In this document: positions 4,055-15,076 of the stretch, piece after piece
Layout of the letters: the number at the start of each line of letters is the position of its first letter
How positions within the stretch are numbered: the first letter of the stretch is position 1
Assembly (NCBI RefSeq): GCF_004124325.1
Contig: NZ_QBDT01000001.1
Location: forward strand, 1,116,001-1,180,000
Source of the DNA: Streptomyces sp. L2
GTDB taxonomy: Bacteria > Actinomycetota > Actinomycetes > Streptomycetales > Streptomycetaceae
Direction: 5' to 3'
DNA: 64,000 nucleotides
Notes under the pieces: model-generated
Database searches by the model: none
What the model was told of the DNA's origin: nothing
Seen by the model: the letters and a program-made list of their open reading frames with translations, nothing else
Position numbers and translations under genes: made by a program

Positions 4055-4744
4055 TTAGTGCCCGCCGTCCCCGCTCTCCTCCAGGAATCCCGCGTCGTAG
4101 GCCAACAGGGCCACCTGGACACGGTTGTTGAGGCCGAGTTTGGCCAGGATGCGGGAGACGTGGGTCTTGACGGTGGCGACGCTCATGAAAAGTTCGGCGG
4201 CGATCTGGGCGTTGGCGAGGCCGCGGCCGACGGCGACGGCGACCTCGCTCTCCCGGTCGTTGAGTTCGGCGAGCCGTTCACGCGCGCGTGCCCGGCGCGT
4301 GCCGGCGCCGGTGGTCTCGGCCGCGTGGCGCATCAGCTGGCGGGTGACGGCCGGCGACAGCACCGGCTCGCCGGCCGCGACGCGGCGCACGGCCTGGACG
4401 ATCTCGGCGGGCGGGGTGTCCTTGAGCACGAAGCCGGCGGCGCCCGCGCGCAGGGCCCGCAGCACCAGGTCGTCGGCGTGGAAGGTGGTCAGCACCACGA
4501 CCTGGGGCGCGTTCTCCCGTTCGCGCAGCCGCCGGGTGGCGGTCAGGCCGTCCACGGAGGGCATGCGGATGTCCATGAGGACGACGTCCGGCCGGGTCCG
4601 GTCGACCAGGGCGACGACCTCGCCGCCGTCGCCGGCCTCCCCGACGATCTCGATGTCATCGGCCCCGCCCATCATCAGGGCCAGCCCGGCCCGCACGAGC
4701 GGGTCGTCGTCGACGAGGAGGAGCCGGATCGCGGTCGCAGTCAT
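4055..4744 (-). CDS. NarL/LuxR-type two-component response regulator
   Basis: A transcription factor of 229 residues. The receiver domain (1-120) has the acidic pocket VDDDP and the phospho-acceptor Asp58 in VLMDIRMP, with the conserved Lys in FVLKDTPP. The LuxR-type helix-turn-helix (about 155-220) contains IAAELFMSVATVKTHVSRIL. The sensor kinase at 7421-8689 is the only matching histidine kinase nearby, but an ABC exporter, a TetR gene and a DUF6343 gene lie between them. The pair may therefore have been split by an insertion, or the ABC genes may be its targets. Confidence 0.92.
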   Translation of the reverse strand: MTATAIRLLLVDDDPLVRAGLALMMGGADDIEIVGEAGDGGEVVALVDRTRPDVVLMDIRMPSVDGLTATRRLRERENAPQVVVLTTFHADDLVLRALRAGAAGFVLKDTPPAEIVQAVRRVAAGEPVLSPAVTRQLMRHAAETTGAGTRRARARERLAELNDRESEVAVAVGRGLANAQIAAELFMSVATVKTHVSRILAKLGLNNRVQVALLAYDAGFLEESGDGGH

Positions 4745-8864: not shown

Positions 8865-9260
8865 TCAGCAGCCGAAGTCGATGCGGGCGAACGTGTCGTA
8901 GTGGTCGGCGGTGTAGTAGTCCTCCTGGTGTTCCTCACCGGTGACGACGCGCCGGGCGCCGCGCGTGGGCGAGCCCGGGGTGATCACCGTGTACTCGTGG
9001 TAGTAGCCGGACGACTGCGACGGCAGGACGCCCTCCCGGTTCTGGAAGACGGTCCCGTCCTGGGAGTAGGGGAAGGGGCCGCCCCGGTCGATGAGGTCCA
9101 GGGTGTCGTGGGCCTGCGTGGGCAGGACGCCATAGCAGACGCTGCCGACGGACGCGGCCGCGGCGTCCGCGGCCGGGGCGGTGACGGCGCCGCCGACGAG
9201 GAGGGCGGACAGCAGCGCGGCCGAGGCGCCGGCGCGGGTGATGTGTGGGGGGAATCTCAT
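8865..9260 (-). CDS. Secreted guanyl-specific ribonuclease, RNase Sa/barnase superfamily
   Basis: A secreted endoribonuclease of 131 residues with a signal peptide ending near residue 34 (ADAAAA). The mature part closely follows streptomycete RNase Sa: GPFPYSQDGTVFQNRE, then YYHEYTVITPG. Numbering with an offset of 35 puts the known catalytic residues at Glu89, Arg104 and His120, and the disulfide at Cys42 and Cys131, so all key residues are present. Such enzymes cleave RNA after guanosine. A barstar-type inhibitor gene lies 4.1 kb away inside the neighbouring insertion element. Whether it inhibits this enzyme is untested. Confidence 0.95.
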   Translation of the reverse strand: MRFPPHITRAGASAALLSALLVGGAVTAPAADAAAASVGSVCYGVLPTQAHDTLDLIDRGGPFPYSQDGTVFQNREGVLPSQSSGYYHEYTVITPGSPTRGARRVVTGEEHQEDYYTADHYDTFARIDFGC

Positions 9261-9340: not shown

Positions 9341-9404
9341 GCGACTTCACCCGCCATCTCGGCGACTTCACCCGCCGTTTCCGCGACTTCACCCGCCGCT
9401 TAAG
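9341..9404. repeat. Three copies of a 21-bp tandem repeat
   Basis: Units beginning GCGACTTCACCCGCC start at 9341, 9362 and 9383, with small differences at the unit ends. They lie between the RNase gene promoter and the stop codon of the broken transporter gene. Confidence 0.8.
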
Positions 9405-9588
9405 CGACCCACCCCGCCGTCCGGCGTCCCCACGCGGTTCCCGCCAGCACCAGCGCCCCGCCCGCGAGACCCGTCGCGCCGAGCCGGTCGCCGCCGAGGG
9501 CGAGTCCGGCCGCGGCGGCCCACAGGGGCTCGGTGCCGAGCAGCAGGCCGACCCGGGACGGCGAGGTCCGGCGGACCGCCCACATCTG
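9400..9588 (-). pseudogene. C-terminal fragment of a DMT/EamA-family transporter
   Basis: These 62 codons plus stop encode QMWAVRRTSPSRVGLLLGTE and the last two membrane helices of an EamA-type drug/metabolite transporter, ending in TAA at 9400. The fragment has no start of its own. It is the missing tail of the N-terminal fragment at 14261-14986. Joined in frame they give a 304-residue protein, the usual family length. The insertion between them separated the two parts. Confidence 0.85.
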
Positions 9589-9656
9589 CTGTGTTAACTG
9601 CACCTTGTTTGGCTCGTTGGACGGGGCGATGCACTTCCTCTCCCAAGGAGCCTCAC

Positions 9657-10859
9657 TTGCCCCAGGATCTTCACGGCGAGTTGATCGAAGGACGAGCCGA
9701 TGTACCCCGCATCGGCTCAGTGATCGAACTCCCCACCGTCCATCCGCCGTACGGCGTCGTTGATGCATCCGGCGAGGTGGTCGAGCCGGTGATGTCATAC
9801 CTGCGGGAGCTTGCTCTCGATGACAACCGCCCTCTGACCAGCCGCAGTTATGCCTACGACCTGCTTCGCTGGTTCCGGGTGCTGTGGCTTCTCGAAGTGG
9901 CATGGGACCGGGCCACCCAGGCCGAGGCTTCCGCGATGGTCGGCTGGCTACGCGTTGCGGCCAATCCTCAACGCCGCCGGAGCAATCCGGCCACGCCCCC
10001 ACCGGGTTCGGTGAACCCTCGGACGGGCAAGCAGTACCTCAGGGCTGGATACGCGCCGTCCACCATCAACCACGCGCTCACCGTGGTCAGCAGTTTCTAC
10101 GCGTTCCACCGGCACTACAACCGTGGCCCGCTGGTCAACCCGGTTCCGGGGTCGCTGGCCCGCAGGAGGGCTCTGGCCCATGGCAACCCGATGGAGCCGG
10201 TCCCGGCGTTCCGCCGCGCCCGACTGCGGCAGCGGGTTCCGCAGACCGATCCGCGGGCGATTCCCGATGCGATGTGGGACGAGTTCTTCGAGGCCATGAC
10301 ACATGACCGGGACCGGGCTGCCGTCCTGCTCTACGTCTCCAGCGGCTCTCGGGCCAGTGAGCTGCTGGGAGTGACGCCGGGAGACATCGACTGGCCGCGG
10401 CAGACGATCTACGTGGTGTCCAAGGGGATGACGGAACGCGAGCCTGTGCCAGCCAGTCCGCAGGCGCTGGCCGTGCTCGCCGCCTACCTGGACGAGGTGG
10501 GCCTGCCGCCCGACCACGAGCCGGTGCTGCGGACCCGCCGGGGCCCGGACAAGCCGCTGAGCTACTGGGCGATGCGCCGCATCGTCCAGCGCGCCAACGA
10601 CAAGCTCTCCACCAACTGGACTCTCCACGACCTGCGTCACACGGCCGCGAAGCGCATGGCCAACGACCCCAGCCTCACTCTCGCCGAGGTACGGGCGATC
10701 ATGCGGCACTCCGACCTGGCCACCACCGGCCGCTACCTCAACTCTCGGGTCGAGGACCTCTTCGATGCCCTGCAGCAGCACTACAACCGGCCCCGTGTCG
10801 AGCGGAGCTTCGCGCCCGGCTACGACCCCGACGACTTCAAGGCGGTGTTCGGTGGTTAA
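9657..10859 (+). CDS. Tyrosine recombinase 1 of the element (TnpA-like)
   Basis: A site-specific recombinase of 400 residues. It probably starts at TTG 9657, because a perfect AAGGAG (9645-9650) sits 6 nt upstream and no ATG or GTG fits. An N-terminal SAM-like core-binding domain covers about 40-180 and the catalytic domain about 200-375. The catalytic set is visible: Arg232 in SSGSRASELLG, Lys256 in VSKG, His324 and Arg327 in LHDLRHTA, His351 in MRHS, and the nucleophile Tyr360 in TTGRYL. Its stop overlaps the start of the second recombinase, so the two are co-translated. Confidence 0.92.
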   Translation: MPQDLHGELIEGRADVPRIGSVIELPTVHPPYGVVDASGEVVEPVMSYLRELALDDNRPLTSRSYAYDLLRWFRVLWLLEVAWDRATQAEASAMVGWLRVAANPQRRRSNPATPPPGSVNPRTGKQYLRAGYAPSTINHALTVVSSFYAFHRHYNRGPLVNPVPGSLARRRALAHGNPMEPVPAFRRARLRQRVPQTDPRAIPDAMWDEFFEAMTHDRDRAAVLLYVSSGSRASELLGVTPGDIDWPRQTIYVVSKGMTEREPVPASPQALAVLAAYLDEVGLPPDHEPVLRTRRGPDKPLSYWAMRRIVQRANDKLSTNWTLHDLRHTAAKRMANDPSLTLAEVRAIMRHSDLATTGRYLNSRVEDLFDALQQHYNRPRVERSFAPGYDPDDFKAVFGG

Positions 10860-13329
10860 CCGAGGAACCCTCTCCGACACCTACACCAGCCGCAACCGAC
10901 GCACCATCGTGCGCGAGGCCGAGGCTCCGCATCCGACCCGGTTCGCCAGCGCCCACCTCAAAGCCGCCCCGGCACCCAGGCCCGAGAACCCGCCGGCCCC
11001 GCTCGGCGACCTGTCCAAGGCCCCGATCAACGAGCTCTGCCGGCTCTCCTCAGAGACCTTGAACGGCAGAACCCGCTCCCTGGGCGAGAAGCGCCGACGC
11101 GGCATCCGCCTACTCTTCGGCCACTTGGAGACGCTGCCCGGCACCACTTGGCAGGAACGCTGGGAAGCCAGCGGCTTCAACGACGAACAGACCCCCTCGG
11201 TCAACATCCTCGGGCGCCCTGACGGCCGCGACCGCAGCGACCTGATCTCGGCCGTGAAGTGGGCGTTCTGCGCCCGCGTGATCCAGCCCTCATTGTCCGG
11301 CTTCCGTGCGAACAAGTTCGTCGAGTACGGAGAAGCCTTCCGTGAGCTGCAGAACGACCCCCAACTTGATGCCTACTTCGCCGCTGTGGATGCCGAGCCC
11401 CGGCTCGACCCCCGGCACCGTATCCGGGCCAAGTTCGACCTGACCTGCGCGTTGACGACACAGGGCATCGCCATAGAGCACCTGACGCCATCGGCCCTGC
11501 TGCACTACTCGCTGGAGAACCGCCGCCTCGGGTTGACCTACGGGGCGAACAACACGACCAACAAGAAGACGCGGTTCGCGGCTCTTGGGACGTGGGAGAT
11601 CCTCCACAAGATGGGCCACTTCCCGCCAGGGACTGCTCCGACTCTGCGGACGTTCATCTACAACGGTCAGTACACCGTCGAGGAGCTTGTCGACCGCTAC
11701 GGCATCCAGCACCAGGGCGTCCGGCAGCTGTTGATCGACTACCTCACCCGTCGACGGGCGGACACCGACTACATCACCGCGGATGGGCTGGCCCGCAACC
11801 TGGCCGGGCTCTTCTGGGCCAAGATCGAGGAGATCAATCCCGACCAGGCGGACCTCGCACTCAGCCAGCACGTCTACGACCAGTGGCGGGCCGACCTGCA
11901 GTACTGGACCAGAGACAAGACGAAGATCCGCAAGGACGTGGCGTCCATCCTCCTCGCGGTCCGCGGGCTCTACGTCGACCTGCACAGCTGGGCCGTCGAG
12001 GAGCCCGAGCGGTGGGGCCCGTGGGTGGCCCCGTGCCCGATCCTGCCCCGGGACTTCACCGGGTTCGGCAAGCGCCGCCGTGAGATCAACCGGCGCATGG
12101 CCGACCGCACCCGGACCCGTCAGCCCCTCCTGCCCGTCCTGGTCCAGCACCTTGAGGCACGGCACGAGCGGCTTGCCGGCCTGCTCGACGCCGGCAGCCA
12201 GGTCCCTCTGGGAGACGAGTTCGTGCACGCCGGACGGCACTACCGGCGCTCTCACTCCAGAGAAGACCAACGCCGGGCCAAGGTCGGTCTGAGCCTGACC
12301 GTCCGGGTCGTCGACACCGCCACCAGCGAGCTCGTCAACGTGTCACTCGCCGAGGATGCGGCCTTCTGGGAGTGGGCCGCGGTCGAGGTGCTTCGGCACA
12401 GCGGTATCAGGATCGAGGAGCTCAGCGAACTCACCCACCTGAGCATCCGCCAGTATCAGCGTCCCAACGGGGAGGTGATCGCCCTCCTGGTCGTCGCCCC
12501 GTCCAAGAGCGAGCGCGAGCGCGTCATCCCCATGTCAGCCGACCTCTTCCACTCCGTCGCCCAGGTCGTCCGCCGCCACACCCGCGACGGACTGGCCATC
12601 CCGCTCGTCTCCCGCTACGACAGTCACGAAAAGACCTGGTCAGAACCGATGCCGTTCCTCTTCCAACGGCAGAACGGCACCGTCCGCGGCGTCCTCGCCC
12701 CCGGCACCGTCCTCAACATGCTCGCCCGCACCTGCGAAGAGATCGGCCGCACCAACGAGGCTTTCGCCGGAACGAAGTTCACGCCCCACGACTTCCGCAG
12801 ACTCTTCGCGACCGAAATCGTCAACGGGGGGCTGCCCATCCACATTGGTGCCGCCCTGCTCGGACACCTGAATCTCCAGACAACTCAGGGTTACGTCGCC
12901 GTCTTCGCCGAGGACATCGTCCGCCACTACCAGGAGTTCCTCAACCATCGCCGGTCCCTGCGGTCGCAGGGCGAGTACAGCGAGGTGACTCCGGAGGAGT
13001 GGGCTGAGTTCGAGGATCACTTCGACAAGCGCAAGGTCGAGCTGGGCAACTGTGCTCGCCCCTACGGCACCCCCTGCCAGCACGAACACGCCTGCATCCG
13101 CTGCCCGATGCTCCAGGTCAATCCCAAGATGCTGTCCCGACTCACGGAGCTCGAAAAGGATCTTCTTGCCCGCCGGAAACGTGCCGAGGAAGAGCAGTGG
13201 CTGGGCGAGATCGACGGCATCGACATGACGCTGACGTTCCTGCGCGCCAAGCAAGCTGAAGCAGCCCGCCTCACGCGCAGGCCAGCCGTCGACCTCGGCC
13301 TGCCCCGACCCCGTTCCGAAGGAGACTGA
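10852..13329 (+). CDS. Tyrosine recombinase 2 of the element (TnpB-like, long)
   Basis: A large recombinase-like protein of 825 residues from GTG 10852, overlapping the first recombinase by 8 nt. The first 500 residues have no domain I recognise. The C-terminal catalytic domain has Arg520 (HSGIRIEEL), Lys in APSKSERE, His646 and Arg649 (PHDFRRLFA), His672 (LLGHLN) and the nucleophile Tyr681 (TQGYVAVF). After it, a Cys/His cluster (C734, C742, H744, H746, C748, C751) looks like a zinc site. Length, order and the Cys-rich tail recall TnpB of Tn554. All catalytic residues are intact, so it may be active. Confidence 0.88.
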   Translation: MVNRGTLSDTYTSRNRRTIVREAEAPHPTRFASAHLKAAPAPRPENPPAPLGDLSKAPINELCRLSSETLNGRTRSLGEKRRRGIRLLFGHLETLPGTTWQERWEASGFNDEQTPSVNILGRPDGRDRSDLISAVKWAFCARVIQPSLSGFRANKFVEYGEAFRELQNDPQLDAYFAAVDAEPRLDPRHRIRAKFDLTCALTTQGIAIEHLTPSALLHYSLENRRLGLTYGANNTTNKKTRFAALGTWEILHKMGHFPPGTAPTLRTFIYNGQYTVEELVDRYGIQHQGVRQLLIDYLTRRRADTDYITADGLARNLAGLFWAKIEEINPDQADLALSQHVYDQWRADLQYWTRDKTKIRKDVASILLAVRGLYVDLHSWAVEEPERWGPWVAPCPILPRDFTGFGKRRREINRRMADRTRTRQPLLPVLVQHLEARHERLAGLLDAGSQVPLGDEFVHAGRHYRRSHSREDQRRAKVGLSLTVRVVDTATSELVNVSLAEDAAFWEWAAVEVLRHSGIRIEELSELTHLSIRQYQRPNGEVIALLVVAPSKSERERVIPMSADLFHSVAQVVRRHTRDGLAIPLVSRYDSHEKTWSEPMPFLFQRQNGTVRGVLAPGTVLNMLARTCEEIGRTNEAFAGTKFTPHDFRRLFATEIVNGGLPIHIGAALLGHLNLQTTQGYVAVFAEDIVRHYQEFLNHRRSLRSQGEYSEVTPEEWAEFEDHFDKRKVELGNCARPYGTPCQHEHACIRCPMLQVNPKMLSRLTELEKDLLARRKRAEEEQWLGEIDGIDMTLTFLRAKQAEAARLTRRPAVDLGLPRPRSEGD

Positions 13330-13347
13330 AACTCCCCATCACGCGTG

Positions 13348-13373
13348 GTGACTGGCCTTCCAAGGCCACCAGT
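13348..13373. terminator. Hairpin between convergent recombinase and barstar genes
   Basis: TGGCCTTCCAAGGCCA (13353-13368) is a perfect 7-bp stem with a CC turn, placed between two converging genes. It could end transcription in both directions. Confidence 0.6.
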
Positions 13374-13388
13374 TGAAGCGACAAGCAA

Positions 13389-14219
13389 TCACTGCAGGAT
13401 GACTTGAATGCCCTGCTCCTGGAAGATCTCCAGGAGCAGGTCGAACAGCGTTGCCTCGCCTTCGCCGGTGGCCCTGTTTTCCGCCAGCCGTGCCCTGGCC
13501 ACGGCCGAGTGCTGCCACTGCAGGGTGAACGGTGAGGTGGCCCCCCAGCCGCCTCTCAAGCAGTCGACGAGAGCATCAAGATTCCATCCGAAGTATCCGC
13601 CGGGTCCATTGATGGCTTCACCGAGCGCGCAGTAGAAGCTGTCCACATCGACGCAGTGTCGGCCGTCCAGGGTGAACACCTGACCTGCGGGAGCGTCGAG
13701 CTTCCCGCGACGCTGGTACTCCCGCGACCAGAGCGCGACCGACAACCAGGAGTGCCTATCCACGGGATCGAGAACATGCCACATGCCCGTACGGTTCAGG
13801 TGCCCCGTGCGGATCAGGTCCCACATCTCCCCTGCTCCAGGCAGGGCTTCATCACACCAGAGAGTCACCGTGACGTCTAGGAAGCCGGCTCCGCGGACGG
13901 CGGGCCGGACGTCAACGACAGTGACGTCGTTAACGAAGTAGGACCCCATGGTGGCGCCCTCGGCGTCGAGGATGTCGATCCAGGCATTCCCCGCCAGGGC
14001 GCGACGACTGCCGACGCGATCCAGGCTCTTCAGCAGGCCGCCCTGCGGGACGCATCCCACGAGGCGCACTCGACGTGCTCCCTCTTCCTCACGAAGAGGC
14101 GTGAACAACCCCTCGGCCTCGTGAGAAAAGCCCCAGAAGTCGGCGTCGTCCTCGTCTGGGGTCAGAGCGTACTTCTGCCCCTCGCTGCCCCGGCCTGGTG
14201 CTCGCATCACTCTCACCAT
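13389..14219 (-). CDS. Barstar-domain protein (RNase inhibitor-like), cargo of the element
   Basis: A protein of 276 residues from ATG 14219, or 272 from ATG 14207. The last 96 residues (about 181-276) match the barstar fold: VFTLDGRHCVDVDSFYCALG, then YFGWNLDALVDCLRGGWG, ending GIQVILQ. The LDALxDCL helix keeps the Asp equivalent to barstar Asp39, which contacts the barnase active site, and an acidic residue sits in the late helix (LLLEIFQE). The first 180 residues are an extension of unknown function with several Trp and Asp residues. It may neutralise a barnase-superfamily RNase. One such gene lies just outside the element. Confidence 0.85.
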   Translation of the reverse strand: MVRVMRAPGRGSEGQKYALTPDEDDADFWGFSHEAEGLFTPLREEEGARRVRLVGCVPQGGLLKSLDRVGSRRALAGNAWIDILDAEGATMGSYFVNDVTVVDVRPAVRGAGFLDVTVTLWCDEALPGAGEMWDLIRTGHLNRTGMWHVLDPVDRHSWLSVALWSREYQRRGKLDAPAGQVFTLDGRHCVDVDSFYCALGEAINGPGGYFGWNLDALVDCLRGGWGATSPFTLQWQHSAVARARLAENRATGEGEATLFDLLLEIFQEQGIQVILQ

Positions 14220-14260
14220 GAGAGCGCTGATCCTACTCGTGAGGGTGAAGTGCAGAGAAG

Positions 14261-14986
14261 CACGAAGAACGCGAACAGCGTGCACAGCGCGGCCAGGAAC
14301 AGCAGTCCGGCCCACTCCCCCGCGCCGAAGCCGGCCGCCGTCGCCCACGGCGAGGTTCCCCAGCCGGCCGACAGGGCCGCGAAGACGGCGACGGCGGTGC
14401 CGAGCTGCACCGTGGTGAGCGGCAGCGCGCCCGCACCCCGCACGGACCGCAGCCGGGACATCGTGAGGACGTGCAGGGTGCGGGCGAGTGCGGCGAGCAG
14501 CATGAGGAGGTCGCCGGGGCCGGGGCGGGTGAAGCCGCCGTTCTGGGTGAGCAGGGCCACGCCGAGCACCGACAGGGCGGCCGCGCCGAGGAAGGCCGGG
14601 GTGGGCCGGGCCCGGGTGACCGCGGACTCGGCGAGCGGGGTGAAGATCATGGTGAGGCTGATGATCAGGCCCGCGTTGGTCGCCGAGGTGTGCACCACCC
14701 CGTAGGTCTCCAGCAGGAAGATACCGCTGAGGATCAGCCCGAGCAGGGCCGCGCCGCGCCACTGCGCCGCCGTCAGCGCGCGCAGGGCCCGGTGCCCGGC
14801 GACGGCGAGGACGGGCAGGACGAGCGCGAAGCGCAGCACCAGGACGGCGAGCACCGTGCGGGTGGTGGTGATGTCCTTCGCGGCGAGATAGCTGGCGCCC
14901 CAGCACACGGCGACGAGCAGGAGGGACAGGTCGGTGTGCCAGGCACGCGCGGGCCTGAGCGTGCCGGGTACGGCGATCGACGTCAT
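14261..14986 (-). pseudogene. N-terminal fragment of a DMT/EamA-family transporter
   Basis: This fragment has 242 codons from ATG 14986 and about eight predicted membrane helices (SLLLVAVCWGASYLAAKD onward). It reads up to LCTLFAFFV, where the insertion element interrupts it. The frame then runs into element sequence and stops at 14213. The 62-residue C-terminal remainder lies at 9400-9588. The truncated product lacks the last two helices and is unlikely to work. Confidence 0.88.
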
Positions 14987-15076
14987 GGGGGCGGCTCTCC
15001 GGGTCTGCGTGCGGGGTGCGCAGACGTCGGCGGCTCGCGCGGGGACGATCACCGTACCCGTGGCGGTGATCTCCGG

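Follow-up and report, generated by a model that had tools for sequence, protein, structure and literature searches.

In Streptomyces sp. L2 (genome of 8.07 Mb in two contigs), a DMT/EamA-type transporter gene is split by a 4,672-bp block that holds two tyrosine recombinase genes and a barstar-family gene, and comparison with homologous loci gives good support for interpreting this block (9588–14259) as a mobile element. Taken as a whole, we consider it likely that an actinobacterial, TnpC-less relative of Tn554 entered the transporter gene, moves through the exchange proposed below and carries a barstar with the role suggested below. Two-recombinase elements of this kind are already on record: the parts of a 2012 study (PMC3414803) considered here describe actinobacterial Tn554-related transposons with one long and one short recombinase and, among them, a subclass without TnpC (Famint36/Famint41). 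What is new here are the ends, junctions, targets and cargo, so that a recognized but little-described class gains its boundaries, a junction rule, target genes and passenger genes. Such elements can now be found by a short DNA signature (the long recombinase has a match at E 1e-60 or better in 83 of the 392 genomes of the genus), it becomes testable whether a reaction of the Tn554 type can dispense with TnpC and use an unchanging overlap, and mobile elements are tied to the spread of solitary genes for predicted RNase inhibitors. The features are as follows, in coordinates of the window (that is, the whole 64-kb stretch of DNA analysed, 72% G+C):

9400..9587, minus strand: 3′ part of the split DMT/EamA transporter gene, approximately 62 codons
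9588..14259, plus strand (tnpA–tnpB direction): whole element, 4,672 bp, delimited against 13 uninterrupted transporter loci
9588..9593, plus strand: left hexamer GCTGTG, read as carried by the element, its first two bases common to the target
9594..9603, plus strand: left arm TTAACTGCAC, motif in 24 of 28 loci, diverged in three, absent from one
9657..10859, plus strand: TnpA-like short tyrosine recombinase, 400 aa
10852..13329, plus strand: TnpB-like long tyrosine recombinase, 825 aa, GTG start, overlapping tnpA
13389..14207, minus strand: cargo gene of the barstar family, 272 aa (PF01337, E 7.8e-16), convergent to tnpB
14250..14259, plus strand: right arm GTGCAGAGAA, a single copy of which follows tnpB in 26 of 32 loci
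14260..14265, plus strand: target hexamer GCACGA (host sequence), identical in 11 of 13 empty sites
14260..14986, minus strand: 5′ part of the same transporter gene (PF00892), approximately 242 codons

A preliminary description of this DNA had proposed that two halves of a DMT transporter flank an insert with two overlapping tyrosine recombinase genes and a barstar-domain gene, and all of these were recovered, the halves through the gene parts and the Pfam match (the 5′ part has an ATG at 14986 and a further in-frame GTG upstream at 15052). The element-free form to be sought among relatives was likewise found: in all 13 of the strongest DMT homologue loci (L031–L043, from a search of 61 genomes) the gene is continuous, and the alignments break at window positions 9588/9589 and 14260/14262. 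The insertion placed earlier at 9589–14260 thus stands, with its limits corrected to 9588–14259. The empty site reads CATCT-GCACGA-AGAA, with GTACGA in L038 and GGACGA in L042 as the two departures from the common hexamer and a difference just ahead of the hexamer in L039; the junctions of the window element read CATCT-GCTGTG-TTAACTGCAC on the left and GTGCAGAGAA-GCACGA-AGAA on the right. Relative to these 13 sites, no target base was lost and none duplicated around a 6-bp core, and the exact junction base is open to interpretation, GC being common to the element's left hexamer and the target. The two arms form inverted repeats with 8 of 10 positions matching; inverted ends, previously thought not to be clear, emerge on alignment of relatives as short and imperfect ones. 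In a circular form, these arms would face each other across a 6-bp spacer, which is the usual core-site anatomy of tyrosine recombinases. Approximately 0.3 kb from the element, at 8865–9260 on the minus strand, lies a barnase-type ribonuclease gene (PF00545) whose product has a signal peptide as judged by eye, and this gene also adjoins the empty DMT site in L032.

In Streptomyces sp. SM10 (L154), an element splits this transporter gene at the identical base and with the same hexamers, the two copies being identical at 4481 of 4670 positions (96.0%), whereas the flanking gene parts agree at only 131 of 159 (82.4%) and 630 of 785 (80.3%). On the basis of these alignments, the simplest reading is that near-identical elements reached two lineages at one site. 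Ordinary homologous recombination, rather than separate recombinase-mediated insertions, could also have brought the block to both strains: the shared base and hexamers accord with it, and a single ancestral insertion could have left much the same picture through later exchange, provided that the tracts ended near the junctions. However, flanking gene sequence is normally part of such tracts, and the fall in identity from 94–96% to 80–82% occurs at both junctions, which makes this route quite improbable. The window element is a single copy in its genome (one full-length match and otherwise three matches of 42–68 bases). In SM10, the tnpB frame is interrupted by a one-base length difference, so that this copy may be inactive; SM10 also has a second barstar copy (L170), 72% identical and likewise with the right-end motif upstream.

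The tnpA gene most likely starts at the TTG at 9657, behind AAGGAG. Among the loci with a long enough open frame, out of 43 examined, R232, K256, H324, R327, H351 and Y360 are invariant across all 29 TnpA rows, as are R520, H646, R649, H672 and Y681 across all 31 TnpB rows; from the motif, we take these residues to be catalytic. For the catalytic lysine of TnpB, no lysine passed a 97% conservation filter over the 31 rows. As a yardstick we used a fexA-bearing Tn554-family element on a staphylococcal plasmid (L234), in which a short recombinase, a long recombinase and a DUF6262 protein (that is, in the position of TnpC) follow one another between two JAB-domain fragments. The window TnpA matches its short recombinase with 21% identity over 335 aa (E 1e-18) and TnpB its long recombinase with 26% over 288 aa (E 2e-15), and TnpB has a Cys motif in common with this staphylococcal relative. 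A DUF6262 search of 25 element-bearing genomes, the window's included, gave no match inside the elements, in agreement with the earlier remark that no tnpC was seen. Outside the elements, matches occur in 15 of the 25 genomes (the window's own and 14 of the 24 others) and are absent from the other ten, suggesting that TnpC-type help in trans is possible in some hosts and not obviously in all.

Forty regions with long-recombinase matches were taken for comparison of the ends. The left motif upstream of tnpA has diverged in L144–L146 and is absent from L111, where the tnpA match begins only at residue 39 and the right end lies within 60 bp after the tnpB match. The six of 32 loci in which GTGCAGAGAA was not found downstream of tnpB are L114, L119, L120, L132, L145 and L146; from base composition, chance would give 0.00086 copies of this motif per kb over both strands. 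Both ends could be read in 24 elements of 4.2 to 12 kb (the window element, L154, L165 and L191 included), with a T ahead of the hexamer in 18 and a right hexamer that begins with G in 21. As read from these alignments, relatives that have these ends are inserted elsewhere, and the genes that they carry between tnpB and the right end are different ones. When the flanks of 20 elements were joined, many gave an open frame across the join. Five joined targets were scanned with Pfam: two uracil-DNA glycosylases (L118, L121), a NUDIX protein (L122) and a CobW GTPase (L130) gave matches that span the join and exceed the cut-off, and a transposase-like target (L144) gave one below it. Judged by the flanks, targets are common to L118, L121 and L134, to L119 and L120, to L112 and L148, and to L125, L127 and L128; the same base was hit in the window strain and SM10, and relatives of the element use several genes. 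In L115, a second tnpA match is broken at the insertion, which is apparently nested in the tnpA of another copy, and L136 looks similarly nested by eye.

The hexamer at the TnpA-distal end of the window element is the target's own, as established against empty sites for this element; for the other loci, a target hexamer at the far end would follow by inference. The hexamer on the TnpA side recurs among related elements whose targets differ (GGTGTG in L110, L112, L113, L116 and L135; GCTGTG in the window element and SM10; GCACAG in L121, L123, L126, L134, L165 and L191; GGTCTG in L124, L125, L127 and L128), and given this recurrence we read it as travelling with the element. We propose that the element would form a circle whose arms, GTGCAGAGAA and TTAACTGCAC, are bound by TnpA and TnpB and that strand exchange would take place across the 6-bp overlap, whereby the circle's hexamer would be kept at the TnpA end, the target's hexamer would move to the far end, and the left hexamer would be passed on through successive hops. 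Over positions 1–4, the left and right hexamers have the same base in 63 cells, more than after shuffling, with P values of 0.00045 (23 elements, L154 dropped) and 0.0037 (19 elements, L121, L134, L128 and L191 also dropped) that ignore the kinship of the elements and hence are optimistic; the excess is confined to positions 2 and 3, with none at 5–6. A need for homology in the overlap would explain this agreement, as would derivation of part of the left hexamer from the target. Where the left hexamer of the window element differs from those of its closest relatives, at the second base, it has the C of the target, so that the latter may apply here.

For the comparison with Tn554 we assume that its 'left' end is the TnpA side. 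With this orientation, the target hexamer of the window element lies at the end opposite to that published for Tn554-like elements, as the parts of PMC10214605 and PMC12486829 considered here place target bases at the left end of SEs and Tn554-like elements and, at the right, bases that come from the donor. The window element resembles Tn554 and its relatives from staphylococci and enterococci in the short-then-long gene order, homologous recombinases and gene-splitting insertion (by the L234 yardstick) and, as far as the same part of PMC10214605 covers it, in a 6-bp core without target duplication; it differs in having no TnpC/DUF6262 gene, in the reversed hexamer placement, in its cargo and, as far as its relatives show, in the use of several target genes. 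The lack of TnpC and the reversed position of the hexamer keep us from filing the window element as a strict member of Tn554; its mode of action is probably closely related. The early suspicion that its chemistry may differ from that of Tn554 is in line with this junction detail, and of the proposed Tn554-like element with barstar cargo, the recombinase homology, the barstar, the split transporter and the lack of tnpC have held, whereas the lack of clear inverted ends has not.

The element fits the TnpC-less Famint36/Famint41 class, as matched by its description, in its adjacent short and long recombinases (long ones of 611–828 aa there and 825 aa here), actinobacterial host and lack of TnpC, whereas ends, junctions, target genes, cargo and a barstar are not reported in the portion of PMC3414803 considered here. 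SE elements, in the portions of the SE literature considered, are alike in one ordinary and one large recombinase, a 6-bp footprint and a left hexamer that the circle is thought to retain; they differ in having four core genes (IntA, Tfp, IntB and Srap), against two recombinases and a barstar here, and in a target hexamer that ends at the IntA side rather than the far side. Assignment as an SE element was rejected, Tfp and Srap genes being absent between the ends, as was assignment as a RIT element, which needs three adjacent tyrosine recombinase genes where only two are present.

The C-terminal domain of the cargo protein matches barstar by Pfam, by PDB sequences and by fold, and resembles that of Barstar/Imm-Barstar proteins, from which the cargo protein differs in an extra beta-rich N-terminal domain of approximately 165 residues and in the lack of a neighbouring toxin gene within the element; the residue that we take to be W38 of barstar is not kept. 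Among the open-licence papers listed on barstar and transposons, none deals, by title and abstract start, with a barstar-carrying element of this kind. Cargo in relatives is varied, in place of the resistance genes of known Tn554-like elements: in a Pfam scan of nine cargo proteins from nine elements, four have a family (a methyltransferase in L113, NUDIX in L122, FolD in L134 and a hydrolase/phosphotransferase fusion in L135) and five have none (L112, L118, L123, L127 and L130), the fusion being the sole one that could bear on resistance. Two cargo proteins (starting MTSIEQ and MDVP) recur in L127–L130, where two were scanned without a Pfam family. In L122, a NUDIX gene is carried by an element inserted in a NUDIX gene, so that cargo may stand in for a broken target, as suggested for tgl in Tn552-II in the part of PMC12486829 considered here.

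Among 80 barstar loci in named genomes, the right-end motif lies 52 or 145–156 bp upstream of the gene in 11, five more have recombinase matches anywhere in the locus but not the motif, and 64 have neither; together with the window element, L117 and L126, the 11 make 14 element-borne loci (L137, L123 and L149 being counted once, as L161, L167 and L166). Seven of the 31 rows in a TnpB tree are labelled as having barstar cargo; they fall in two separate clades, with at least three changes of this label on well-supported branches, for which two gains and one loss are the simplest reading among possible mixes of gain and loss; barstar cargo was thus, by this tree, probably gained more than once. 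In L155–L187 (14 loci looked at), the same family occurs as solitary genes without a constant neighbour, suggesting other ways of spread.

As judged from its sequence, the barstar domain would inhibit a barnase-type RNase, and since no partner RNase travels with the gene, the cargo would most likely serve as a solitary immunity gene against the RNase toxins of competitors. It might instead be a chance passenger without a role for element or host, an idea that suits the varied cargo and the 64 loci pointing to other spread; we hold it to be somewhat unlikely, given the 14 element-borne loci, the presence of barstar in two recombinase clades and a protein kept at 64–92% identity over 27 homologues. 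Very unlikely, in our view, is that the gene is kept to counter the secreted RNase next door at 8865–9260. In this genome, PF00545 and PF01337 are each matched only twice, and of the two RNase genes one lies beside the element and the other has its own barstar directly after it. However, three RNase queries (E 1e-3) gave no match at the other 13 element-borne barstar loci, some on short contigs, and SM10, with the same insertion, is among these; the presence of the RNase gene beside the empty site of L032 means that it predates the insertion, and its apparent signal peptide likewise argues against this role. Extending solitary immunity to the group, TnpC-independent Tn554-like actinobacterial elements might move by a mirrored exchange in which the 6-bp overlap stays their own rather than being replaced with every hop. 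They might also shuttle solitary immunity genes, such as one for a barstar protein that has a beta-barrel N-terminal domain resembling injection-tube (Hcp-type) proteins and would protect recipients from RNase toxins delivered by neighbours; this generalization is speculative and, in our estimate, unlikely to hold. The second barnase-type RNase gene of the Streptomyces sp. L2 genome, at G000:C1:6633844-6634403 (L150, L152), forms an ordinary-looking pair with the other barstar gene of that genome.
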